Positions 4,322-20,917 of a stretch of DNA of 22,131 nt are shown here, piece by piece. Where the stretch lies: positions 1-22,131 of the forward strand of contig CALZHQ010000063.1 in NCBI GenBank assembly GCA_945787295.1, in the 5' to 3' direction. Position numbers and translations under genes: made by a program. This DNA comes from an uncultured Desulfuromonadales bacterium. Lineage in GTDB: Bacteria; Desulfobacterota; Desulfuromonadia; Desulfuromonadales; Geopsychrobacteraceae. The first letter of the stretch is position 1. Each line of letters begins with the position of its first letter. The notes under the pieces are model-generated. The model saw nothing but the letters and a program-made list of their open reading frames with translations. It had not been told where the DNA came from and made no database searches.

Positions 4322-5434
4322 ATGATAAAAAAAATCCTCCTGACCATCTTCGGCCTGCTGGTGCTGGTCGTTATCATTGGCGGCATTAAATACCTGCAGA
4401 TCGTCAAGATGGTCGATGCCAGCAGCCAGTTCGCGATTCCTCCTGAACCGGTGACCACTGCCAAGGTGAGCACCGAAGCCTGGGAGCAGTTACTCACCTC
4501 GGTCGGCAGCCTGACCGCCGTACAGGGGGTGATCGTTGCCGCGGAACTCCCCGGAAAAATTGTCGAGATCGCCTTTACTCCCGGCAGCAAGGTGGAAAAA
4601 GGACAACTGCTGCTGCGCCAGGATACCAGCTCGGAACGGGCCGAGCTGTCGGGAACCGAAGCCGCGCTGAAACTAACCGATCAGTCGCTGCAGCGGACCA
4701 AGCGATTGATCGGCGAACAGCTGATCTCTGCAGCCGAACTCGACCGTGATGAAGCCGCCTACCAGCAGGCGCTGGCCAACATTAATGCCCTGCGCAGCCG
4801 GATCGCCAAAAAGACCATCCGCGCCCCCTTTGCCGGCCACCTCGGCATCCGCCAGGTCAACCTGGGGCAGGTGCTGAGCGAAGGCGAACCGATCGTCAGC
4901 CTGCAGAGCCTTGATCCGATCTTCGTCGATTTCAAGCTCCCCCAGCAGCAGCTGCACCTGCTGAAACCTGGGCTGCCGGTCCGGGTCTTTGCCGACGGCA
5001 TTCCCGATCGTCAGCTGCAGGGGGTGATCTCCACCATCAATCCGCAAGTCGATGCCGCAACCCGCAACATCGGTGTGCAGGCCACCCTGGACAATCATGA
5101 TGAGAGTTTGCGTCCGGGCATGTTCGTCACCGTGGAGGTGCTGCTGCCGGAGCCGCAACAGGTGCTGGCGATTCCCGCGACCGCGGTGCTTTATGCCCCG
5201 TTCGGCGATTCGGTGTTCATCGTTGAAGAGAGCAAAGCTGAGCTGGCCCTGCGCCAGCAGTTCGTGCGCCTTGGTGCCAAGCGGGGAGACTTCATCAACG
5301 TACTCTCCGGCCTGCAGGGGGGTGAAACCCTGGTCAGCACCGGGGTGTTCAAGCTGCGCAACGGCCAGGCCGTGGTGGTCGACAACAAACTGGCGCCCGA
5401 CTTCAAACTGAACCCGCAGCCGGAAAACAACTGA
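4322..5434 (+). CDS. RND efflux pump periplasmic adaptor (membrane fusion protein)
   Basis: 370 residues. One N-terminal membrane anchor (residues 4-22, KILLTIFGLLVLVVIIGG); a biotinyl-lipoyl half-motif AAELPGKIVEIAFTPGSKVEKGQLL (73-97); an alpha-helical hairpin (105-163); the returning lipoyl half with IRAPFAGHLGIRQVNLGQVL (166-185); then a beta-barrel (DPIFVDFKLP) and a membrane-proximal domain (VLAIPATAVLY). This order is typical of MexH/MexC/AcrA-class adaptors that link an inner-membrane RND pump to a TolC channel. The gene ends five bases before the pump gene. No outer-membrane channel gene follows, so the pump must use a TolC encoded elsewhere. The substrate is not predictable. The ribosome site is poor. 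Confidence 0.9.
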   Translation: MIKKILLTIFGLLVLVVIIGGIKYLQIVKMVDASSQFAIPPEPVTTAKVSTEAWEQLLTSVGSLTAVQGVIVAAELPGKIVEIAFTPGSKVEKGQLLLRQDTSSERAELSGTEAALKLTDQSLQRTKRLIGEQLISAAELDRDEAAYQQALANINALRSRIAKKTIRAPFAGHLGIRQVNLGQVLSEGEPIVSLQSLDPIFVDFKLPQQQLHLLKPGLPVRVFADGIPDRQLQGVISTINPQVDAATRNIGVQATLDNHDESLRPGMFVTVEVLLPEPQQVLAIPATAVLYAPFGDSVFIVEESKAELALRQQFVRLGAKRGDFINVLSGLQGGETLVSTGVFKLRNGQAVVVDNKLAPDFKLNPQPENN

Positions 5435-5439
5435 GGCTT

Positions 5440-8400
5440 ATGCGTTTTACCGATCTCTTTATCCGCCGGCCGGTGCTGGCGCTGGTGGTCAGCTTGTTGA
5501 TCATCATCGCCGGTCTGCAGGCGGTACGCAGCCTGAACGTGCGCCAGTACCCGCGCAGTGAAAATGCCGCGGTGACGGTCACCACCGTCTATGTCGGCGC
5601 CAGCGCCGAACTGGTGCGCGGCTTTATCACCACGCCGCTGGAACGGGCGATCGCCGCGGCCGACGGTATCGAGTACATCGAGTCGCAGAGCGCGCAGGGT
5701 TTATCGACCATCACTGTCCGCCTGAAACTGAACTACAATGCGATCCAGGCGCTCTCCGAGATCAGCTCCAAGGTCGACCAGGTGCGCAACGACCTGCCGC
5801 CGGAAGCCGAGGTGCCGATTATCAACGTCGAATCGGCCGACAGCCGCTTCGCCTCGGCCTACCTGAGCTTCACGTCCGACATCCTCGAACAGAACGAAAT
5901 CACCGACTACCTGGTGCGGGTGGTGCAGCCGCGCCTCTCGGCCCTCACCGGGGTGCAGCGGGCCGATATTCTCGGCGCCCGCACCTTCGCCATGCGCATC
6001 TGGCTGAAACCGGAGCGGATGGCGGCGCTCAATGTCAGTCCGGCCGAAGTCCGACAGGCCCTGGCCGGCAACAATGTCCTGGCCGCCCTGGGCCGCTCTA
6101 AAGGCGCACTGATTCAGGTCAACCTGGTCGCCGACACCAACCTGAACAGCGTACGTGAATTCGAGCAGCTGGTGGTGCGCGAAGAGGCGGGCGCGATTGT
6201 CCGCATCACGGATATCGCCGCTGTCGTCCTCGGCGCCGAGGACTATGATGCCGAGGTGCGCTTCTCCGGCCAGACGGCCGTGTTCATGGGGATCTGGCCG
6301 TTGCCGAACGCCAACTCGCTGGATGTGATCAAACGGGTGCGGGTCGAGATGGCGAAGATTCAGGAGGATCTGCCGGGCGGATTGCAGGCGCGCATCGCCT
6401 ACGACGCCACCGCCTATATCGACAACGCGATCCGCGAAGTGATCAAAACGCTGAGCGAAACCCTGCTGATCGTGATTGTCGTCATCTTCCTGTTCCTCGG
6501 CTCACTCCGTTCGGCTCTGGTGCCGGTGGTGGCGATTCCGTTGTCGTTGATCGGCGGTGTGTTTTTGATGCAGGTCTTCGGCTTCACCATCAACCTGTTG
6601 ACCCTGCTGGCGATCGTGCTGTCGGTCGGACTGGTGGTCGATGACGCCATCGTCATGGTGGAGAATGTCGAACGGCATATCCGCAACGGCGAGAAACCAT
6701 TCCAGGCGGCCCTGCTCGGCGCGCGCGAGCTGGTCAGCCCGATCATCGCCACCACCCTGGTGCTGGGGGCGGTCTATACGCCGATCGGTCTGCAGGGCGG
6801 ACTGACCGGCTCGCTGTTTCGCGAATTCGCCTTTACCCTGACCGGCGCGATCGTCATCTCGACCATCGTCGCCCTGACCCTGTCGCCGATCATGTCCGCC
6901 AAACTGCTCAAACCGGGCGCCGCCGAACGGGGTCTGGCCGGGCGGATATCGCGCGACTTCGACCGGCTGCGAAACCTCTATGGCCGGCTGCTCGACGCCA
7001 GCCTGCGCAGCCGACCGGCGGTATATCTGGTCTGGCTGGTGGTCGCGGCGCTGTGCGTGCCGATGTTCATCATGTCAGCGGTCGAGTTGGCCCCGACCGA
7101 GGATCAGGGGGTGATTTTCGGCATCGTCGATGCCGCAGCCAACGCCACCCTGGACCAGACCAGCATCTATGCTGCGGAGGCCAACCGCGCCTTCATGAGC
7201 GTACCGGAGACCGATTTCACCTTCCAGATCACCTTCCCGTCGTCCGGCTTCGGGGGGTTGGTGACAAAACCCTGGGAGGAGCGCGAGCGGACTATCTTCG
7301 AAATCCTCCCCGAGGTGCAGGGCAAGCTGCACGCCATCCCCGGCATCCGCATGTTCCCGGTGACACCTCCGGCATTGCCGGGCGGCGGAGACTTCCCGGT
7401 CGAGTTCATCCTCGCTTCGACCGCCGAACCTGAACAGATCCTGCAGTTCGCCCGGCAGATCCAGGTCAAAGCGATGCAGAGCGGCATGTTCGCCTTTCCG
7501 CCGATCATCGATGTCAAAATCGACCAGCCTCAGGCTGAATTCGTCATCGATCGCGATCGGGTCGCCAGTCTGGGCCTGAACCTGCGGCAGGTGGCCGCCG
7601 ATCTCGGCGGCATGGTCGGCGGGAATTTCGTCAACCGCTTCGATATCTCCGGTCGCAGCTATAAGGTGATCCCTCAGGTGCAGCGAGTCGACCGGCTGAA
7701 CCCAGAGCAGCTGAAAGATATCTATGTGACCGGCCCGGCTGGCCAGCTGGTGCCCTTATCGACCATCGCCAGGATCGAGAACTCGACCGTGCCCCGCTCA
7801 TTGAACCGTTTTCAACAGTTGAATGCGGTAAAAATCAGCGGCGTTTCCGTCCGGCCACTGGAGGAGGCGCTGCAGTTTCTCGAAGCGGAAGCCGCCAAAA
7901 TCCTGCCGGACGGCTATCTTCTCGACTACACCGGCGAATCGCGCCAACTGCGGGCCGAGGGCAATCAGTTTCTGCCGACCTTCGCCCTGGCGATCGCGCT
8001 GATCTTCCTGACCCTGGCGGCGCAGTTCAACAGTTTCCGCGATCCCCTGGTGATTCTGGCCGGCTCGGTGCCCCTGGCGATGTTCGGCGCGCTGATCTTC
8101 ACCTTCTTGAAAATGCCCGACCCGAACGTCCCCTTCTGGACCCAGGGCTGGACCACCACCCTGAATATCTACTCGCAGGTCGGTCTGGTCACCCTGGTCG
8201 GCCTGGTGGCGAAAAACGGCATTCTGGTGGTCGAATTCGCCAACAAGCTGCAAGTGCAGGGACGGACCAAGCTTGAGGCGGTGCGCGAAGCGTCACGCGT
8301 GCGGCTGCGGCCGATTCTGATGACCTCTGCTGCGACCATCGCCGGCCACTTCCCGCTGACCCTGGTCACCGGCGCCGGCGCCGAAGCGCGGAATTCGATC

Positions 8401-8559
8401 GGCCTGGTGCTGGTCGGCGGCATGGCGGTCGGCACCCTGTTCACCCTGTTCGTGGTCCCCTCGCTGTACATGCTGTTCGCCAAGGATCACAGCCAGGACC
8501 GGGAGTCACTTGCGACGGCGGAACCCTCACTGGCCAACACCGCACCCGAAAGCTTATAA
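5440..8559 (+). CDS. RND multidrug efflux pump inner-membrane transporter (AcrB/MexI-like, HAE1 family)
   Basis: 1039 residues, the usual HAE1 length. TM1 follows FIRRPVLALVVSLLIIIAG (7-25). Two large periplasmic loops are present. The TM4 proton-relay motif VGLVVDDAIVMVENVERH carries Asp401 and Asp402 (AcrB D407/D408), and the TM10 lysine is K925 in LVGLVAKNGILVVEFANK (AcrB K940). So the proton-relay residues checked are intact. It drives drug/proton antiport from periplasm or membrane through the adaptor and an outer-membrane channel. GAGG lies five bases before ATG, and the gene is clearly co-transcribed with the adaptor. The GC-rich codon use matches the neighbouring core genes. Confidence 0.93.
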   Translation: MRFTDLFIRRPVLALVVSLLIIIAGLQAVRSLNVRQYPRSENAAVTVTTVYVGASAELVRGFITTPLERAIAAADGIEYIESQSAQGLSTITVRLKLNYNAIQALSEISSKVDQVRNDLPPEAEVPIINVESADSRFASAYLSFTSDILEQNEITDYLVRVVQPRLSALTGVQRADILGARTFAMRIWLKPERMAALNVSPAEVRQALAGNNVLAALGRSKGALIQVNLVADTNLNSVREFEQLVVREEAGAIVRITDIAAVVLGAEDYDAEVRFSGQTAVFMGIWPLPNANSLDVIKRVRVEMAKIQEDLPGGLQARIAYDATAYIDNAIREVIKTLSETLLIVIVVIFLFLGSLRSALVPVVAIPLSLIGGVFLMQVFGFTINLLTLLAIVLSVGLVVDDAIVMVENVERHIRNGEKPFQAALLGARELVSPIIATTLVLGAVYTPIGLQGGLTGSLFREFAFTLTGAIVISTIVALTLSPIMSAKLLKPGAAERGLAGRISRDFDRLRNLYGRLLDASLRSRPAVYLVWLVVAALCVPMFIMSAVELAPTEDQGVIFGIVDAAANATLDQTSIYAAEANRAFMSVPETDFTFQITFPSSGFGGLVTKPWEERERTIFEILPEVQGKLHAIPGIRMFPVTPPALPGGGDFPVEFILASTAEPEQILQFARQIQVKAMQSGMFAFPPIIDVKIDQPQAEFVIDRDRVASLGLNLRQVAADLGGMVGGNFVNRFDISGRSYKVIPQVQRVDRLNPEQLKDIYVTGPAGQLVPLSTIARIENSTVPRSLNRFQQLNAVKISGVSVRPLEEALQFLEAEAAKILPDGYLLDYTGESRQLRAEGNQFLPTFALAIALIFLTLAAQFNSFRDPLVILAGSVPLAMFGALIFTFLKMPDPNVPFWTQGWTTTLNIYSQVGLVTLVGLVAKNGILVVEFANKLQVQGRTKLEAVREASRVRLRPILMTSAATIAGHFPLTLVTGAGAEARNSIGLVLVGGMAVGTLFTLFVVPSLYMLFAKDHSQDRESLATAEPSLANTAPESL

Positions 8560-9231: not shown

Positions 9232-10512
9232 ATGGGACTCCCTTTAAATAGGCGAGACTACGATATTTTTCTCAGCTACGCACACAGCGATCGGTCCTTT
9301 GTGGAGCAGATCTATCAGTGGTTGCAACAGGCGGGATTGGAGGTGTGGTGGGATGATCGAGATATGTCGGCTGGAGCATTATTGGCAACTGAACTGCAAA
9401 AGGCCATAGAGAGATGTCGTGCAGTAATACTTGTTGCTACGGACGATTCGGTTGCTCGCGGGTGGGTGCAAGCCGAGTACAACATAGCCATGGATGAGCG
9501 CGCTAATTATAAGGGATTTCGGGTTGTCGTGTTGAGAATGGAGAATGCAAACGTAAACGACTTTTTGATTAAAGGCATGTCTTGGATTGATGTGCCCAAT
9601 AACACCCTTGATGCAGACCTTGGTTTGGCAATTGTGCGAGCGTTATACCCCAGCGAGAATAGACCTAATCCAGTCACTGCACACGACATTTTTATTAGTG
9701 CCTCTTGGCAAAGTGAGGATAACGAGAGTGCAACCGCAGTATGTAAACATTTATCAAGACAAGGATTTCGCCTCATTGGAGACTCTAAAGACCAAAAAGG
9801 TTTTGAATCTGGTCACAGGTCCGAACAAATCATGTCCAGTTGTGGGGCATTCGTAAGCATTATTCCATATCGCGGTGAAGACACTGCTGTCGCTGGCGAG
9901 AAACCTTACAATTATTTTCTTCAAGAAATTGATTTTGCCGCGGAGCAAAGCTTACCAAGTCTTGTAATTGCTGATCCTCGAATTAAAAGGGCAGATGGCC
10001 ACGATCAGAATTGGCTTCGCATGGAGACTGACAACGACAATGTGCCTCAAATAATACAAAACTCTCTGCAATCCATTTGGGACAGATGGCGTAAACCGCT
10101 GAAGCCACACTATATTTTCTATGCTATGGACCTTGACTCCGAAAATAAGCGCTTAATGGGACCCGTCCGCCAGCTCATTCAGCTTATCACCTCGATGCCC
10201 ACAATAGTTGGTGATGAAGTTCATGAAGGGAATCCAGAAAGTACGAACGCCGCTGTACGGGCTGCTGTTTCTGACGCTTTTCTGGTGATTGCCGACCTAA
10301 CTGACGACAATGTTAATGCTTGTATTGAAGCTGGGATGGCACTTGCAGTAGGGACGAATGTCGAACTTCTTGCTGCGGGCCCACAACGTCGACCACCTTT
10401 CATGCTACGAGAGCGAAATATGCCGACCTATAATAATGAGGTGCAGAAAATAGGTTTACTTCACAAAATATCGAGGCACTACCGTCGTCGGGTTATTAAC
10501 GCAGAGCTATGA
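9232..10512 (+). CDS. Three-module TIR / TIR-like / nucleoside deoxyribosyltransferase-like protein
   Basis: 426 residues, cytoplasmic. Module 1 (9-140) is a TIR domain: YDIFLSYAHSDRSFVEQI, EVWWDDRDMSAG, AIERCRAVILVATDDS and WVQAEYNIA, where Glu82 sits at the place of the TIR NADase catalytic Glu (W-x-x-x-E). Module 2 (150-290) starts HDIFISASWQSEDNES and resembles a diverged TIR/SEFIR fold; E232 may be its counterpart Glu. Module 3 (292-415) has HYIFYAMDL, then VIADLTDDNVNACIEAGMAL (352-371), the 'ADLT..N.N...E.G.A' pattern of deoxyribosyltransferase-like (TIR-related) folds. The gene is clearly AT-richer than both neighbours, which suggests transfer. GAGGAAAGGA lies about 10 bases before ATG. 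A defence or nucleotide-signalling role is inferred. Confidence 0.8.
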   Translation: MGLPLNRRDYDIFLSYAHSDRSFVEQIYQWLQQAGLEVWWDDRDMSAGALLATELQKAIERCRAVILVATDDSVARGWVQAEYNIAMDERANYKGFRVVVLRMENANVNDFLIKGMSWIDVPNNTLDADLGLAIVRALYPSENRPNPVTAHDIFISASWQSEDNESATAVCKHLSRQGFRLIGDSKDQKGFESGHRSEQIMSSCGAFVSIIPYRGEDTAVAGEKPYNYFLQEIDFAAEQSLPSLVIADPRIKRADGHDQNWLRMETDNDNVPQIIQNSLQSIWDRWRKPLKPHYIFYAMDLDSENKRLMGPVRQLIQLITSMPTIVGDEVHEGNPESTNAAVRAAVSDAFLVIADLTDDNVNACIEAGMALAVGTNVELLAAGPQRRPPFMLRERNMPTYNNEVQKIGLLHKISRHYRRRVINAEL

Positions 10513-10561: not shown

Positions 10562-11560
10562 ATGAGCGAAAATATCGAATCTGCGCGGGCCGTACTTAAG
10601 GAAAGATCCAGGGAATTCTTGAGCCGGAGCAATGTTGTGGCGACAGGGATCGGCTACAAGGTGACCGGCGGGAAGCGCACCGAGACGCCTTGTATTGTCT
10701 GCTCGGTCGAGAAAAAGCTCGCCGCCGCAGCCTTGTCAGCTCAGGATCTGCTGCCGAAGGAAGTGCAGGGCATCGCCACCGACGTGGTCGAGACCGGGAT
10801 TTTCCGTGCCTTACAGGCCCCGACCGGCAGGTTCCGTCCGGCCCCCGGCGGCGTCAGCATCGGTCACAAGGACATCACCGCTGGAACCTTGGGGTGTTGG
10901 GTGAAGCGGGACGGCCAGTGGCACATCCTCTCCAACAATCATGTCATGGCCAACAGTAACAATGCCCAGATTGGCGATCCGATCCTGCAGCCCGGCCCCC
11001 ACGATGGTGGGCAGAATCCCGCCGACCAGATCGCCACATTGACCGATTTCGTGCCGATCGAGATCGGCGGACAGCCGAGCAACTGCAATGTCGCCGGCAA
11101 TATCGTCAACCTGCTGAACAAATTTGCCGAGATGGCCTCCAGCGACACCCGCTTGCAAGCGGTCAAGGCCTTCGCCGGGGAAAACCTGGTCGACGCCGCC
11201 ATCGCCCGGCCTCTCGATGATGCCGATGTGCAGAACGAAATCCTCGGCATCGGAGCGATTCAGGGTCTGACGGACGGCCTGCTCGGCATGAAGGTGAAAA
11301 AGAGCGGCCGGACGACCTCATTCACCGAAGATGAGATTCTGCAGGTCGATGTGACGGTGAATGTTCAGTACGGGGCCGGCCAGATTGCCACCTTTGCCGA
11401 TCAACTGGTGGCGGGGCCGATGAGCCAGGGGGGCGACAGCGGGTCCGCGGTGCTCGACGAAAACAACAATCTGGTCGGTCTGCTGTTTGCCGGCAGCGAT
11501 CAGAACACCATTTTCAACCGCATCCAGAATGTCTTCAGCGCCTTGAGGCTGGGCTTATGA
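10562..11560 (+). CDS. Trypsin-fold serine protease with N-terminal prodomain-like region
   Basis: 332 residues with no signal peptide, so probably cytoplasmic. The chymotrypsin-like triad is readable: His127 in LSNNHVMA, Asp211 in LVDAAIAR and Ser293 in QGGDSGSAV. The segment between His and Asp is enlarged by about 50 residues. Residues 17-80 form a separate domain (NVVATGIGYKVTGG ... LPKEVQGIATDVVETG) that is matched by the small lipoprotein encoded next, suggesting an inhibitory or folding prodomain. AAGGGGG precedes the ATG. The gene begins 49 bases after the TIR gene, on the same strand, but its GC-rich codon use differs. Substrate unknown; similar bacterial proteins are annotated only as S1-type peptidases. 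Confidence 0.8.
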   Translation: MSENIESARAVLKERSREFLSRSNVVATGIGYKVTGGKRTETPCIVCSVEKKLAAAALSAQDLLPKEVQGIATDVVETGIFRALQAPTGRFRPAPGGVSIGHKDITAGTLGCWVKRDGQWHILSNNHVMANSNNAQIGDPILQPGPHDGGQNPADQIATLTDFVPIEIGGQPSNCNVAGNIVNLLNKFAEMASSDTRLQAVKAFAGENLVDAAIARPLDDADVQNEILGIGAIQGLTDGLLGMKVKKSGRTTSFTEDEILQVDVTVNVQYGAGQIATFADQLVAGPMSQGGDSGSAVLDENNNLVGLLFAGSDQNTIFNRIQNVFSALRLGL

Positions 11561-11850
11561 AAACCCTATTCGCCGGCATCATCCTGTTCCTTCTGGCGGC
11601 TTGCTCTCAAGAACCGAATAAGGAAATAACCATGACAGACGCCATCCAGGACGTCAAAGCCAAATATGAAAAACAGATAATTGCCACCCCGGGCGTGGTC
11701 TCAATGGGTATCGGCAAGAACGCCGCCGGCGACACCGCGATCATCATCGGAATCGAAAAGGACAGTGAGAAAACCAGAGCGGCGCTGCCCAAAGAGCTGG
11801 ATGGCTATCCGATCGAGATCCAGACAACCGGCCCGGCACGCGCCCAATGA
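11557..11850 (+). CDS. Small lipoprotein homologous to the protease N-terminal domain
   Basis: 97 residues. Signal peptide MKTLFAGIILFLLAAC with lipobox Cys16. The mature part aligns with residues 25-80 of the protease: GVVSMGIGKN against NVVATGIGYK, then IGIEK against CSVEK, LPKELDGYPI against LPKEVQGIAT, and a closing TTG against ETG. The start overlaps the protease stop (ATGA), so the two are translated as a pair. An internal ATG at 11632, with AAGGA 8-12 bases before it, would give a 72-residue form without the signal peptide, which could stay in the cytoplasm with the protease. Role as inhibitor or chaperone of the protease is inference. Confidence 0.7.
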   Translation: MKTLFAGIILFLLAACSQEPNKEITMTDAIQDVKAKYEKQIIATPGVVSMGIGKNAAGDTAIIIGIEKDSEKTRAALPKELDGYPIEIQTTGPARAQ

Positions 11851-17045: not shown

Positions 17046-17345
17046 CTAGTGATAATCCTCTTCCAACTGATGACGAACGGCTAAAATTGTAACCGTTTTG
17101 TTGTTCTCGATCTCGAATAGGACAACATAGCCTTTTGAGCCGAATGGAATGATCATTTCGCGCAGCAGGGGATTTTCAGGTGTCGCCTTTCGGCAGGTAA
17201 AAGGAAAATCCTGAAGAAAGCCGACGCCTTTTTCGATTGCTTCGAGTGCTTTGCGGGCAGCAGCTAAGTCTAATTCAACAAGAAAACCATACAGCCGAAC
17301 AAGGTCTTCTTTCGCCCCTTTTGTATAGCGAACTTGATAGCTCAC
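17046..17345 (-). CDS. ParE/RelE-family toxin
   Basis: 99 residues, the normal size. YQVRYTKGAKEDLVRLYGFL opens the family's helix hairpin, followed by FPFTCRKATPENPLLREMIIPFGSKGYVVLFEIEN and VTILAVRHQLEEDYH, the beta-sheet and C-terminal strand with the family Arg/His positions. The GTG start overlaps the antitoxin stop (GTGA, 17342-17345), so translation is coupled. ParE-type toxins poison gyrase and RelE-type ones cut mRNA; the target cannot be told here. A terminator follows at 17010-16985. Confidence 0.85.
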   Translation of the reverse strand: MSYQVRYTKGAKEDLVRLYGFLVELDLAAARKALEAIEKGVGFLQDFPFTCRKATPENPLLREMIIPFGSKGYVVLFEIENNKTVTILAVRHQLEEDYH

Positions 17346-17614
17346 TTAATAGCCTTTTTCTCTGCATCGTGAAGCATAGTCTTTAATTCATCAAAGACCG
17401 CATCCGCAGAAAAATACTCCCCAGTTCGTTTTGCTTCTTCTCTGGAGGCCAGACCTCTTGAAATGAACTCTTTCTGAGCCACTCGATGTTGGATTCCGGC
17501 CTTCAAAGACTCTTCCATAAAGTTGGATAAACTTTCACCTTCACGTAAAACGCTCTCAGCCGCTTGGCGCAATTCAGGCTCAACTCTTATGGATGGGATT
17601 GATGATGATTTCAT
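17342..17614 (-). CDS. Antitoxin of the ParE-type module (YlcI/YnfO-like, RHH N-terminus)
   Basis: 90 residues from ATG 17614, chosen because GGAGG lies five bases upstream; an in-frame upstream ATG run (to 17641) would cover the operator. SSIPSIRVEPELRQAAESVL with ESLSNFMEESLKAGI is a ribbon-helix-helix DNA-binding pattern. The tail EFISRGLASREEAKRTGEYFSADAVFDEL is typical of this antitoxin family and should wrap the toxin. It likely represses its own promoter through the palindrome at 17630-17646. Confidence 0.8.
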   Translation of the reverse strand: MKSSSIPSIRVEPELRQAAESVLREGESLSNFMEESLKAGIQHRVAQKEFISRGLASREEAKRTGEYFSADAVFDELKTMLHDAEKKAIK

Positions 17615-17629
17615 AATGACCTCCATGCG

Positions 17630-17646
17630 ATGCATTTGCAATGCAT
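17630..17646 (-). promoter_or_regulatory. Operator-like palindrome of the ParE-type module
   Basis: Perfect 7-base arms ATGCATT/AATGCAT around TGC, ending 16 bases upstream of the antitoxin ATG. Size and place fit autoregulation by the RHH antitoxin. Confidence 0.5.
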
Positions 17647-19544: not shown

Positions 19545-20144
19545 TTATGAACAGGACACTCTCTGGCTCATCTTTATCTTGCTCGCAAAACGGTATATGG
19601 TCGCTCGGCTGACTTTATACTTGATGGCTAAATCCTCTTTGGAAAAGTCACCTTGTTCAAATTCTCGGATCAGTTGTTTCCTTTGAGCGGTCGTCATGTC
19701 CTCAAACATGGATTTCCTGCCAAACTTAACTCCCCTGGCTTTTGCTAATTCTCGCCCCTCAGCAGTTCGCTGCATAATCATGTCTCTTTCAAACTCACCA
19801 ATGGCAGAGATCATGTAGAAGAGCAGTCTGCCGCTCGGAGTTGTCGTGTCGATCTGCTGGTCTAGAACAACCAAATCAACATTTTTTTCTTCAAGCAACT
19901 TGGCGATGTTGGCAAGATCGATCACCGAACGCGCTAATCGATCAAGCTTTGTCACCACGAAAATATCCCCCTCCCGGATGTAGTTTAACGCTGCTTCAAG
20001 TTGTTCCCGTTGTGACCCCGTCTTTCCGGTAAATTTCTCCGAAAAGATTTTGTCGCAGCCGCTTTCAGTTAACCGCTGCACTTGAATGTCCAACGACTGC
20101 CCGCTTGTGGATACCCGACTGTAGCCAACCTTGATTCCTTTCAT
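19545..20144 (-). CDS. Serine recombinase (resolvase/invertase family)
   Basis: 199 residues, the full size of small Tn3-resolvase/Pin-type enzymes. Catalytic region VGYSRVSTSGQSLDIQVQRL with nucleophile Ser12 and Arg10. KLDRLARSVIDLANI supplies the catalytic Arg pair, and GEFERDMIMQRTAEGRELAKARGVKFGR leads from helix E into the DNA-binding tail. The helix-turn-helix is KEDLAIKYKVSRATIYRFAS. It should cut and rejoin DNA at a nearby res-like site through a Ser-DNA bond. ATG 20144 has GAGGAG seven bases upstream and overlaps the stop of a 12-codon leader ORF. It lies downstream of the RelE module on the same strand, behind a strong terminator. It looks intact and could be active. Confidence 0.88.
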   Translation of the reverse strand: MKGIKVGYSRVSTSGQSLDIQVQRLTESGCDKIFSEKFTGKTGSQREQLEAALNYIREGDIFVVTKLDRLARSVIDLANIAKLLEEKNVDLVVLDQQIDTTTPSGRLLFYMISAIGEFERDMIMQRTAEGRELAKARGVKFGRKSMFEDMTTAQRKQLIREFEQGDFSKEDLAIKYKVSRATIYRFASKIKMSQRVSCS

Positions 20145-20348: not shown

Positions 20349-20636
20349 TCAATTTTTTCTTTTGTCGACCTTCTTGTAAACTAGATTCTTGTCCCGCCTG
20401 CCAATCGCAATAACCTGGACGCAAATCCGCTCGTCTATCACCTCATAGACCAGTCGATACCCGCTTGCCCGCAGCTTGATCTTGTAATGGTTCTCATATC
20501 CGGAAAGCTGGTCCCCTGGCACACGCGGATTTTCTAAGCGGTCCACCATCTTCTTCTTAAACTGTGCCCTGATCGAGCCATCCAATTTTTTCCATTCTTT
20601 GAGAGCCGTTGGCAAAAATTCCAGCTCATAGGTCAT
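20349..20636 (-). CDS. RelE/StbE-family toxin
   Basis: 95 residues. YELEFLPTALKEWKKLDGSI, RLENPRVPGDQLSG, YKIKLRASGYRLVYEVIDERICVQVIAIGRRD and a basic tail follow the RelE/StbE pattern, with the Lys/Arg positions used for mRNA cleavage in the ribosome A site. The ATG overlaps the antitoxin stop by 11 bases (ATGACCTATGA, 20626-20636), so the pair is translationally coupled with antitoxin first. The terminator at 20211-20249 ends the operon. Confidence 0.9.
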   Translation of the reverse strand: MTYELEFLPTALKEWKKLDGSIRAQFKKKMVDRLENPRVPGDQLSGYENHYKIKLRASGYRLVYEVIDERICVQVIAIGRRDKNLVYKKVDKRKN

Positions 20637-20877
20637 CGAGGCTGACCTTTACTGCGGATATTTTTTCATGCTGCCGTTGTTGAACGATCAAGCCGATCTG
20701 ATAATCCTCTACCTTCTCCATTAGCGCCTCATAGGTCTCAGCCGGAATCAGGTAAGCCGTAGGCTTGTTATGGTTAAGGATAGCGATTGGTTCGCCACCA
20801 GACTTTTCGATCAGGGATGAGGGGTTTTTCTTTAGCTCAGAAATGCTAGCTGAGCAATTTGCGAGTACCGTTTCCAT
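20626..20877 (-). CDS. Phd/YefM (StbD-like) antitoxin
   Basis: 83 residues from ATG 20877; an in-frame upstream extension to 20913 lacks a ribosome site, while GAGG precedes 20877. ETVLANCSASISELKKNPSS with GGEPIAILNHNKPTAYLIPA is the Phd/YefM DNA-binding domain in its StbD form. The acidic tail (EKISAVKVSLDDL) binds the toxin. It should repress its own promoter at the palindrome around 20918-20935. Confidence 0.9.
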   Translation of the reverse strand: METVLANCSASISELKKNPSSLIEKSGGEPIAILNHNKPTAYLIPAETYEALMEKVEDYQIGLIVQQRQHEKISAVKVSLDDL

Positions 20878-20917
20878 AATAAAACCTCTTTCTCGATCTC
20901 TATAAAGACTCAATTTG

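Follow-up and report, generated by a model that had tools for sequence, protein, structure and literature searches.

The pro region of alpha-lytic protease is made in one piece with its enzyme, for which it acts as both foldase and inhibitor. Proteins resembling propeptides can also stand alone: as described in passages of PMC6993865, Plasmodium SUB1-ProM adjoins subtilase genes and is a potent SUB1 inhibitor, and other stand-alone subtilisin propeptide-like inhibitors are named from yeast, Pleurotus and Arabidopsis. Rice NARROW LEAF 1 (NAL1) is a trypsin-like serine protease with a NAL1_N domain (PF25608; structures 7y77, 8has, 8hat, 8hau, 8pmi and 8pn1). NAL1 influences the size of rice leaves and, in maize, flowering as well as the width of the leaves (passages of PMC12915138, which assign no role to the N-terminal domain). 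Here we analyse two overlapping genes of an uncultured Desulfuromonadales bacterium, encoding a NAL1-type protease and a lipoprotein paralogous to the N-terminal domain of that protease but encoded as a separate protein. The window is the whole stretch of DNA analysed, 22,131 nucleotides of contig CALZHQ010000063.1.

The alpha-lytic pro region is longer than this partner, and Pfam and PDB sequence searches found no sequence relation between the two. The window protease differs from rice NAL1 in its Nal1_C match (PF25819), which at 13.6 bits is under the cut-off of 26.1. Like SUB1-ProM, the partner is a free-standing relative of a protease propeptide lying next to a protease gene; that class is subtilisin-type and eukaryotic, whereas the window pair is trypsin-fold and prokaryotic, its genes overlap and a second start is likely. 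The pair also resembles CtpA-LbcA of Pseudomonas, in which a protease has a lipoprotein partner, but LbcA is described as activating a C-terminal processing protease, and the entries listed for PMC8764530 and PMC11021448 mention no prodomain relation. Among the literature matches listed, which include a survey of prokaryotic serine proteases (PMC2605481), no title dealt with prokaryotic NAL1-type proteases, a free NAL1_N protein or the NAL1 structures; this leaves their absence from the literature unproven.

The protease and its lipoprotein partner share a domain

The features of the pair, all on the + strand, are:

10562..11560, +, NAL1-type trypsin-fold serine protease, 332 residues, hydrophobic N-terminus absent
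10562..10813, +, protease N-terminal NAL1_N (prodomain-like) domain, residues 1-84 (Pfam PF25608 and end-to-end alignment with the partner)
10832..11557, +, catalytic trypsin-fold domain, residues ~91-332 (fold match)
10940..10942, +, codon of catalytic His127, invariant in a 19-sequence alignment, codon read from the DNA
11192..11194, +, codon of catalytic Asp211, invariant in the same alignment, read from the DNA
11438..11440, +, codon of catalytic Ser293 (GDSGS), invariant in the same alignment, read from the DNA
11557..11850, +, partner, a 97-residue lipoprotein with a stand-alone NAL1_N-like domain (sequence, profiles and fold)
11557..11604, +, lipoprotein signal peptide MKTLFAGIILFLLAAC, lipobox LAAC, Cys16 codon at 11602-11604
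11620..11624, +, Shine-Dalgarno-like AAGGA, 7 nt before the internal ATG (11632), at the pooled peak described below
11632..11847, +, stand-alone domain, partner residues 26-97, starting at the internal ATG (Met26)

The protease frame runs from an ATG at 10562 to a TGA at 11558-11560. PF25608 matches its residues 20-72 with 33.3 bits, above the cut-off of 27, and in a single-chain structure prediction the catalytic domain resembles NAL1 and the Streptomyces griseus and alpha-lytic proteases; trypsin Pfam families match the same part with scores under their cut-offs. The His-Asp-Ser triad is intact and the trypsin fold is present. With its Nal1_C match under the cut-off, we describe the protease as NAL1-like and claim no orthology to NAL1. 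The family is large, with E ≤ 1e-3 for 7981 among 8000 candidates scored.

The partner frame begins at the ATG at 11557 and stops at 11848-11850, sharing the four bases ATGA with the end of the protease gene; the DNA bears out both the overlap and the gene coordinates given by an earlier, sequence-only reading. A hydrophobic signal followed by LLAAC at residues 12-16, judged by eye, identifies the product as a lipoprotein, and the AAC of the lipobox is retained in 10 of 15 aligned proteins. Pfam and PDB sequence searches gave no useful match for the partner: no Pfam family matched the window lipoprotein, and just one of 27 aligned partners matched PF25608 (E 0.013). NCBIfam matches were weak and lay mainly within the signal region. 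The best fold match of its predicted model is the NAL1 N-terminal domain, and the model resembles the fold of the alpha-lytic pro region (a 154-residue chain) weakly. The C-terminal tail of partners is conserved: of 120 proteins, 117 have its Ala and 99 its Gln.

The sequence-only reading had proposed that the lipoprotein copies the protease prodomain, pointing to the motifs GVV/NVV-x-x-GIG, xEK, LPKE-xxG and a closing TG; all occur in both proteins in that order. By itself, BLASTP of the pair gives a weak match (19.6 bits, E 0.018). Aligned locally, the two segments from the window nevertheless reach a score of 62, whereas shuffles average 24.8 (standard deviation 4.7) and none of 2000 scored as high. 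Comparison of a profile of 44 partners with one of 44 protease N-terminal domains aligned the whole domain with a probability of 98.4% (E 9.5e-15), as against 0.2% for the reversed profile and 0.05-0.6% for three column shuffles. The similarity is thus far above chance level, and on these comparisons the first ~84 residues of the protease and residues 26-97 of the lipoprotein are homologous end to end.

The pair recurs and descends from one ancient split

A scan of contigs that started from the protease gave 12 loci, in 11 of which a relative of the stand-alone domain adjoins the protease, downstream in nine bacterial loci and upstream in two from Woesearchaeota; in the twelfth (L011), just 228 bases precede the protease frame. 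Searches of 146, 398, 148 and 40 genomes with a protease profile found genes in 4, 5, 2 and 20 genomes, respectively, 38 in total, and the partner adjoins 27 of these (3/4, 3/5, 2/2 and 19/27 by sample). The 11 negatives include two that end at the contig end (L050 and L059), one with 403 bases left (L064) and one, in genome G185, with a 132-residue frame giving a borderline match (E 0.004); this sample and the 12 loci have four loci in common. Calditrichota, the phylum to which G009 is assigned through L009, commonly have the protease, which is rare in the sampled Proteobacteria. Where a close protease relative is present, the partner is usually present. A larger set, in which 57 of 73 protease frames have a same-strand partner, is mixed and includes partner-led loci, and gives no rate. 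Two of its frames (L087 and L090) are C-terminal pieces of the L093 and L100 proteases, and L093, L100 and L101 were scored as lacking a partner, yet have one on the same contig ~1 kb downstream, beyond the fetched stretch. A protein-database profile search with 23 partners yielded 774 proteins at E ≤ 1e-3, which are short owing to the length limits of the search; 120 are among the matches listed.

Regular absence of the partner from homologous proteases, which would have spoken against the pairing, is not what we found in the close family (27 of 38 with a partner), but it does describe more distant relatives from plasmids and viruses, with a detectable partner in two of nine (9 of 16 matched records). 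One is the pair RRADSPS_RS15435/RS15440 of Rubrobacter radiotolerans, whose partner (RS15440, E 1.5e-8) has no signal visible by eye; in the other, from Rhizobium ruizarguesonis, the partner is an unannotated frame on the opposite strand (E 2.5e-8). The small gene after the protease of R. leguminosarum looks alike by eye and fell below detection as a partner.

In a tree of the 44 partner domains and 44 protease N-terminal domains, which omits 13 of the 57 pairs (divergent, fragmentary or with a stop), one branch separates all partners from the protease-borne domains, with support of 100/98; it is present in 200 of 200 bootstrap trees, although on few columns. Partner identities track those of the catalytic domains (r 0.85; best of 999 permutations, 0.17). 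This single branch and the tracking point to one old split followed by co-inheritance, and that is the history of the close family. Recent duplication of the window's own domain is contradicted both by the tree and by the identities, since partners are on average hardly closer to their own protease's domain (24.5% identity) than to those of other proteases (23.8%; 44 pairs). Hence the part of the earlier proposal that describes a stand-alone prodomain-like neighbour stands, by profile, fold and recurrent pairing, whereas the word copy does not fit so old a split.

Several loci depart from the common arrangement. The stand-alone domain precedes the protease in L010 and L012 (Woesearchaeota) and in L039, from a genome of the same phylum. 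The protease frame of L004 (2127-3122) has one in-frame TAG in the assembly, and its partner frame is open. In a Streptomyces canus plasmid (L118, 1926-3806), a NAL1-type protease domain lies inside a protein annotated as a DNA/RNA non-specific endonuclease and so appears to be fused to a nuclease. Aeropyrum coil-shaped virus encodes a relative annotated as a putative serine protease (L120, 1989-2969), with no partner detected in the fetched stretch.

Exported partners keep a possible second start codon

Taking hydrophobicity as a stand-in for signal-peptide prediction, we found a strongly hydrophobic N-terminus on the downstream partner in 29 of the 57 pairs, the window included. The proteases of 23 of these 29 pairs, again including that of the window, have no hydrophobic segment, four have one (L014, L016, L065 and L066), and the frames of two (L004 and L086) are incomplete at the N-terminal end. 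Among Calditrichota, 17 of 19 partners are without a hydrophobic N-terminus, 16 of them being 71-76 residues long; L065 and L066 are the exceptions, and in L042 and L044 a hydrophobic stretch before the protease falls upstream of its likely start. Export of the lipoprotein would place it in another compartment than the signal-less protease, a point absent from the sequence-only reading. A conserved internal start codon could reconcile the two.

In the window this codon is the ATG of Met26 (11632), which would yield a 72-residue product without the signal. Its column in an alignment of 121 stand-alone proteins, a subset of the 774 matches, contains Met in 87, Val in 32 and Ala in two, and the neighbouring residues are variable. 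Leaving the first residue aside, seven other columns have at least 10 Met, and in six of them Leu or Ile is among the commonest letters; in the Met-rich column 20, in a gappy linker, neither is. In all 29 exported partners with DNA, a start codon lies 66-84 codons ahead of the stop, at exactly 72 in 19 of them; with up to ~16 codons scanned, the presence of such a codon in 29 of 29 is unsurprising alone, and the argument lies in the exact column and codon. Where the residue is Val, the codon is GTG in six of six exported partners with DNA (approximately three independent cases; P ~0.035, by arithmetic on codon usage). In L104 and L105 the codon is GTG, even though their protease genes make little use of GTG for Val, and it is preceded by GAGGAGG and GGAGGAGGG; in L014 and L016 the codon taken as the internal start is less certain. 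One genome, G001, carries two protease-partner pairs on contigs C398 and C180 (L067, the same pair as L001, and L069), with ATG as the internal start in one and GTG in the other. This conservation of an internal start in exported partners is a new observation here.

Across 18 representatives, the mean anti-Shine-Dalgarno energy at the internal codon is -6.8, the strongest of 80 codon offsets, compared with -4.5 in synonymous shuffles (Fisher P 0.003, Stouffer P 0.0007). The first start has a weaker mean of -2.7; in 23 of 29 cases it shares four bases or one base with the protease stop. Several points temper the evidence: a further peak, at -5.3, occurs at another position in the gene; gene-by-gene synonymous shuffling gives P < 0.05 in three of 29 genes (L004, L104 and L105) and P > 0.05 in the other 26; the window gene alone is not significant (P 0.18 and 0.48, in runs that differ in codon-usage frame); and at least three 72-residue entries begin at the Met26 column and thus count as Met trivially. 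Because of that other peak and the 26 genes with P > 0.05, we consider the pooled signal moderate. A second product, which would stay in the cytosol alongside the signal-less protease, is likely, as a candidate short of proof.

The internal codon could instead be a relic, if a once-cytosolic partner gained an upstream signal and its old ATG and Shine-Dalgarno sequence fell out of use. Signal-less Calditrichota partners begin at about the same place, as such a history would predict. On the other hand, Met or Val persists in 119 of 121 proteins, without Leu or Ile, while the flanking residues vary; the consistent use of GTG for Val and a Shine-Dalgarno-like peak that survives the pooling of diverged representatives also argue for a codon still in use. 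A relic is thus a possibility we take seriously but on balance doubt.

A proposed regulator acting in trans

Homology, recurrent pairing and matching compartments make a regulator that binds in trans the simplest reading. We give a probability of about 50% to the pair being a protease with a stand-alone, trans-acting prodomain-like regulator, most likely an inhibitor, with a dual start in Proteobacteria and Desulfuromonadales. Its homology, fold, gene pairing, co-inheritance and conserved start codon are established by computation; binding, inhibition and use of the second start we infer. The small protein, an ancient paralogue of the protease's own NAL1_N domain, would bind the catalytic domain of its cognate protease in prodomain fashion, its conserved C-terminal tail (...RAQ) pointing to the active site, and would keep the protease inactive and perhaps aid its folding. 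In Proteobacteria and Desulfuromonadales, one partner gene would probably give two products. The first, whose translation would be coupled to the protease stop codon, would be exported as a lipoprotein or periplasmic form; the other, cytosolic and 72 residues long, would be made from the second start with its own Shine-Dalgarno-like site and would share the compartment of the signal-less protease. Among the roles named beforehand (to inhibit, fold, anchor or compete), inhibition in trans appears the likeliest.

More broadly, and only tentatively, bacterial and archaeal NAL1-type proteases may be controlled by dedicated trans-acting prodomain paralogues, with two-start, two-compartment delivery in Proteobacteria and Desulfuromonadales, and the N-terminal domain of plant NAL1 may likewise act, as a regulator of the prodomain type, on the active site of its own enzyme; we would place this somewhat below an even chance. 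Prokaryotes supply the NAL1_N domain as a free 72-residue protein beside its protease, which makes binding, inhibition and folding directly testable. If the partner inhibits, trypsin-fold enzymes would have a family of propeptide-type inhibitors much as subtilisins do; if the second start is true, this would be a clean case of a single gene supplying a protease regulator to either side of a membrane.

A structural or anchoring subunit, replacing the NAL1_N domain in an oligomer or tethering the protease to the envelope without inhibition, would be consistent with the domain being built into rice NAL1, with the partner's best fold match, and with the hydrophobic N-termini of so many downstream partners. 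An exported lipoprotein cannot, however, tether a protease without a hydrophobic N-terminus, as in the window, unless that protease is released, and the anchor is absent from many partners; we regard this role as unlikely. It is improbable that the partner only helps the protease to fold and leaves the folded enzyme unregulated: the weak resemblance to the alpha-lytic pro region and translation right after the protease, through the ATGA overlap, would suit a foldase, but the protease has its own copy of the domain and the partner went undetected for 11 of the 38 protease genes. Very improbable is a substrate or decoy cut by the protease, such as a signal released from the envelope, for although the conserved tail would suit it, conservation across the domain and homology to the protease's own domain indicate a binding partner.

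Neighbouring genes in the window

The gene at 9232-10512, ending 49 bases before the protease, encodes a TIR-domain protein of 426 residues (TIR_2, 101 bits), whose best PADLOC match, over part of the protein, is PDC-S66; it is possibly a stand-alone defence gene. A defence operon joining it to the pair is unsupported, with no TIR gene in the single sizeable upstream frame compared at each of eight other protease loci, from incomplete frame lists (DUF3300, FHA, no family, amidohydrolase, amino-acid permease, PhzF, Memo and PAC2). With an E limit of 1, PADLOC matched neither the protease nor the lipoprotein. Judged by eye from their translations, two small gene pairs, at 17046-17641 and 20349-20913, resemble RelE/ParE-type toxin-antitoxin modules. 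Near one of them, a serine recombinase or resolvase-like protein (19545-20144, by eye) possibly marks a mobile segment. Upstream, at 4322-8559, lies a membrane fusion protein and RND-type transporter pair, also recognized by eye.
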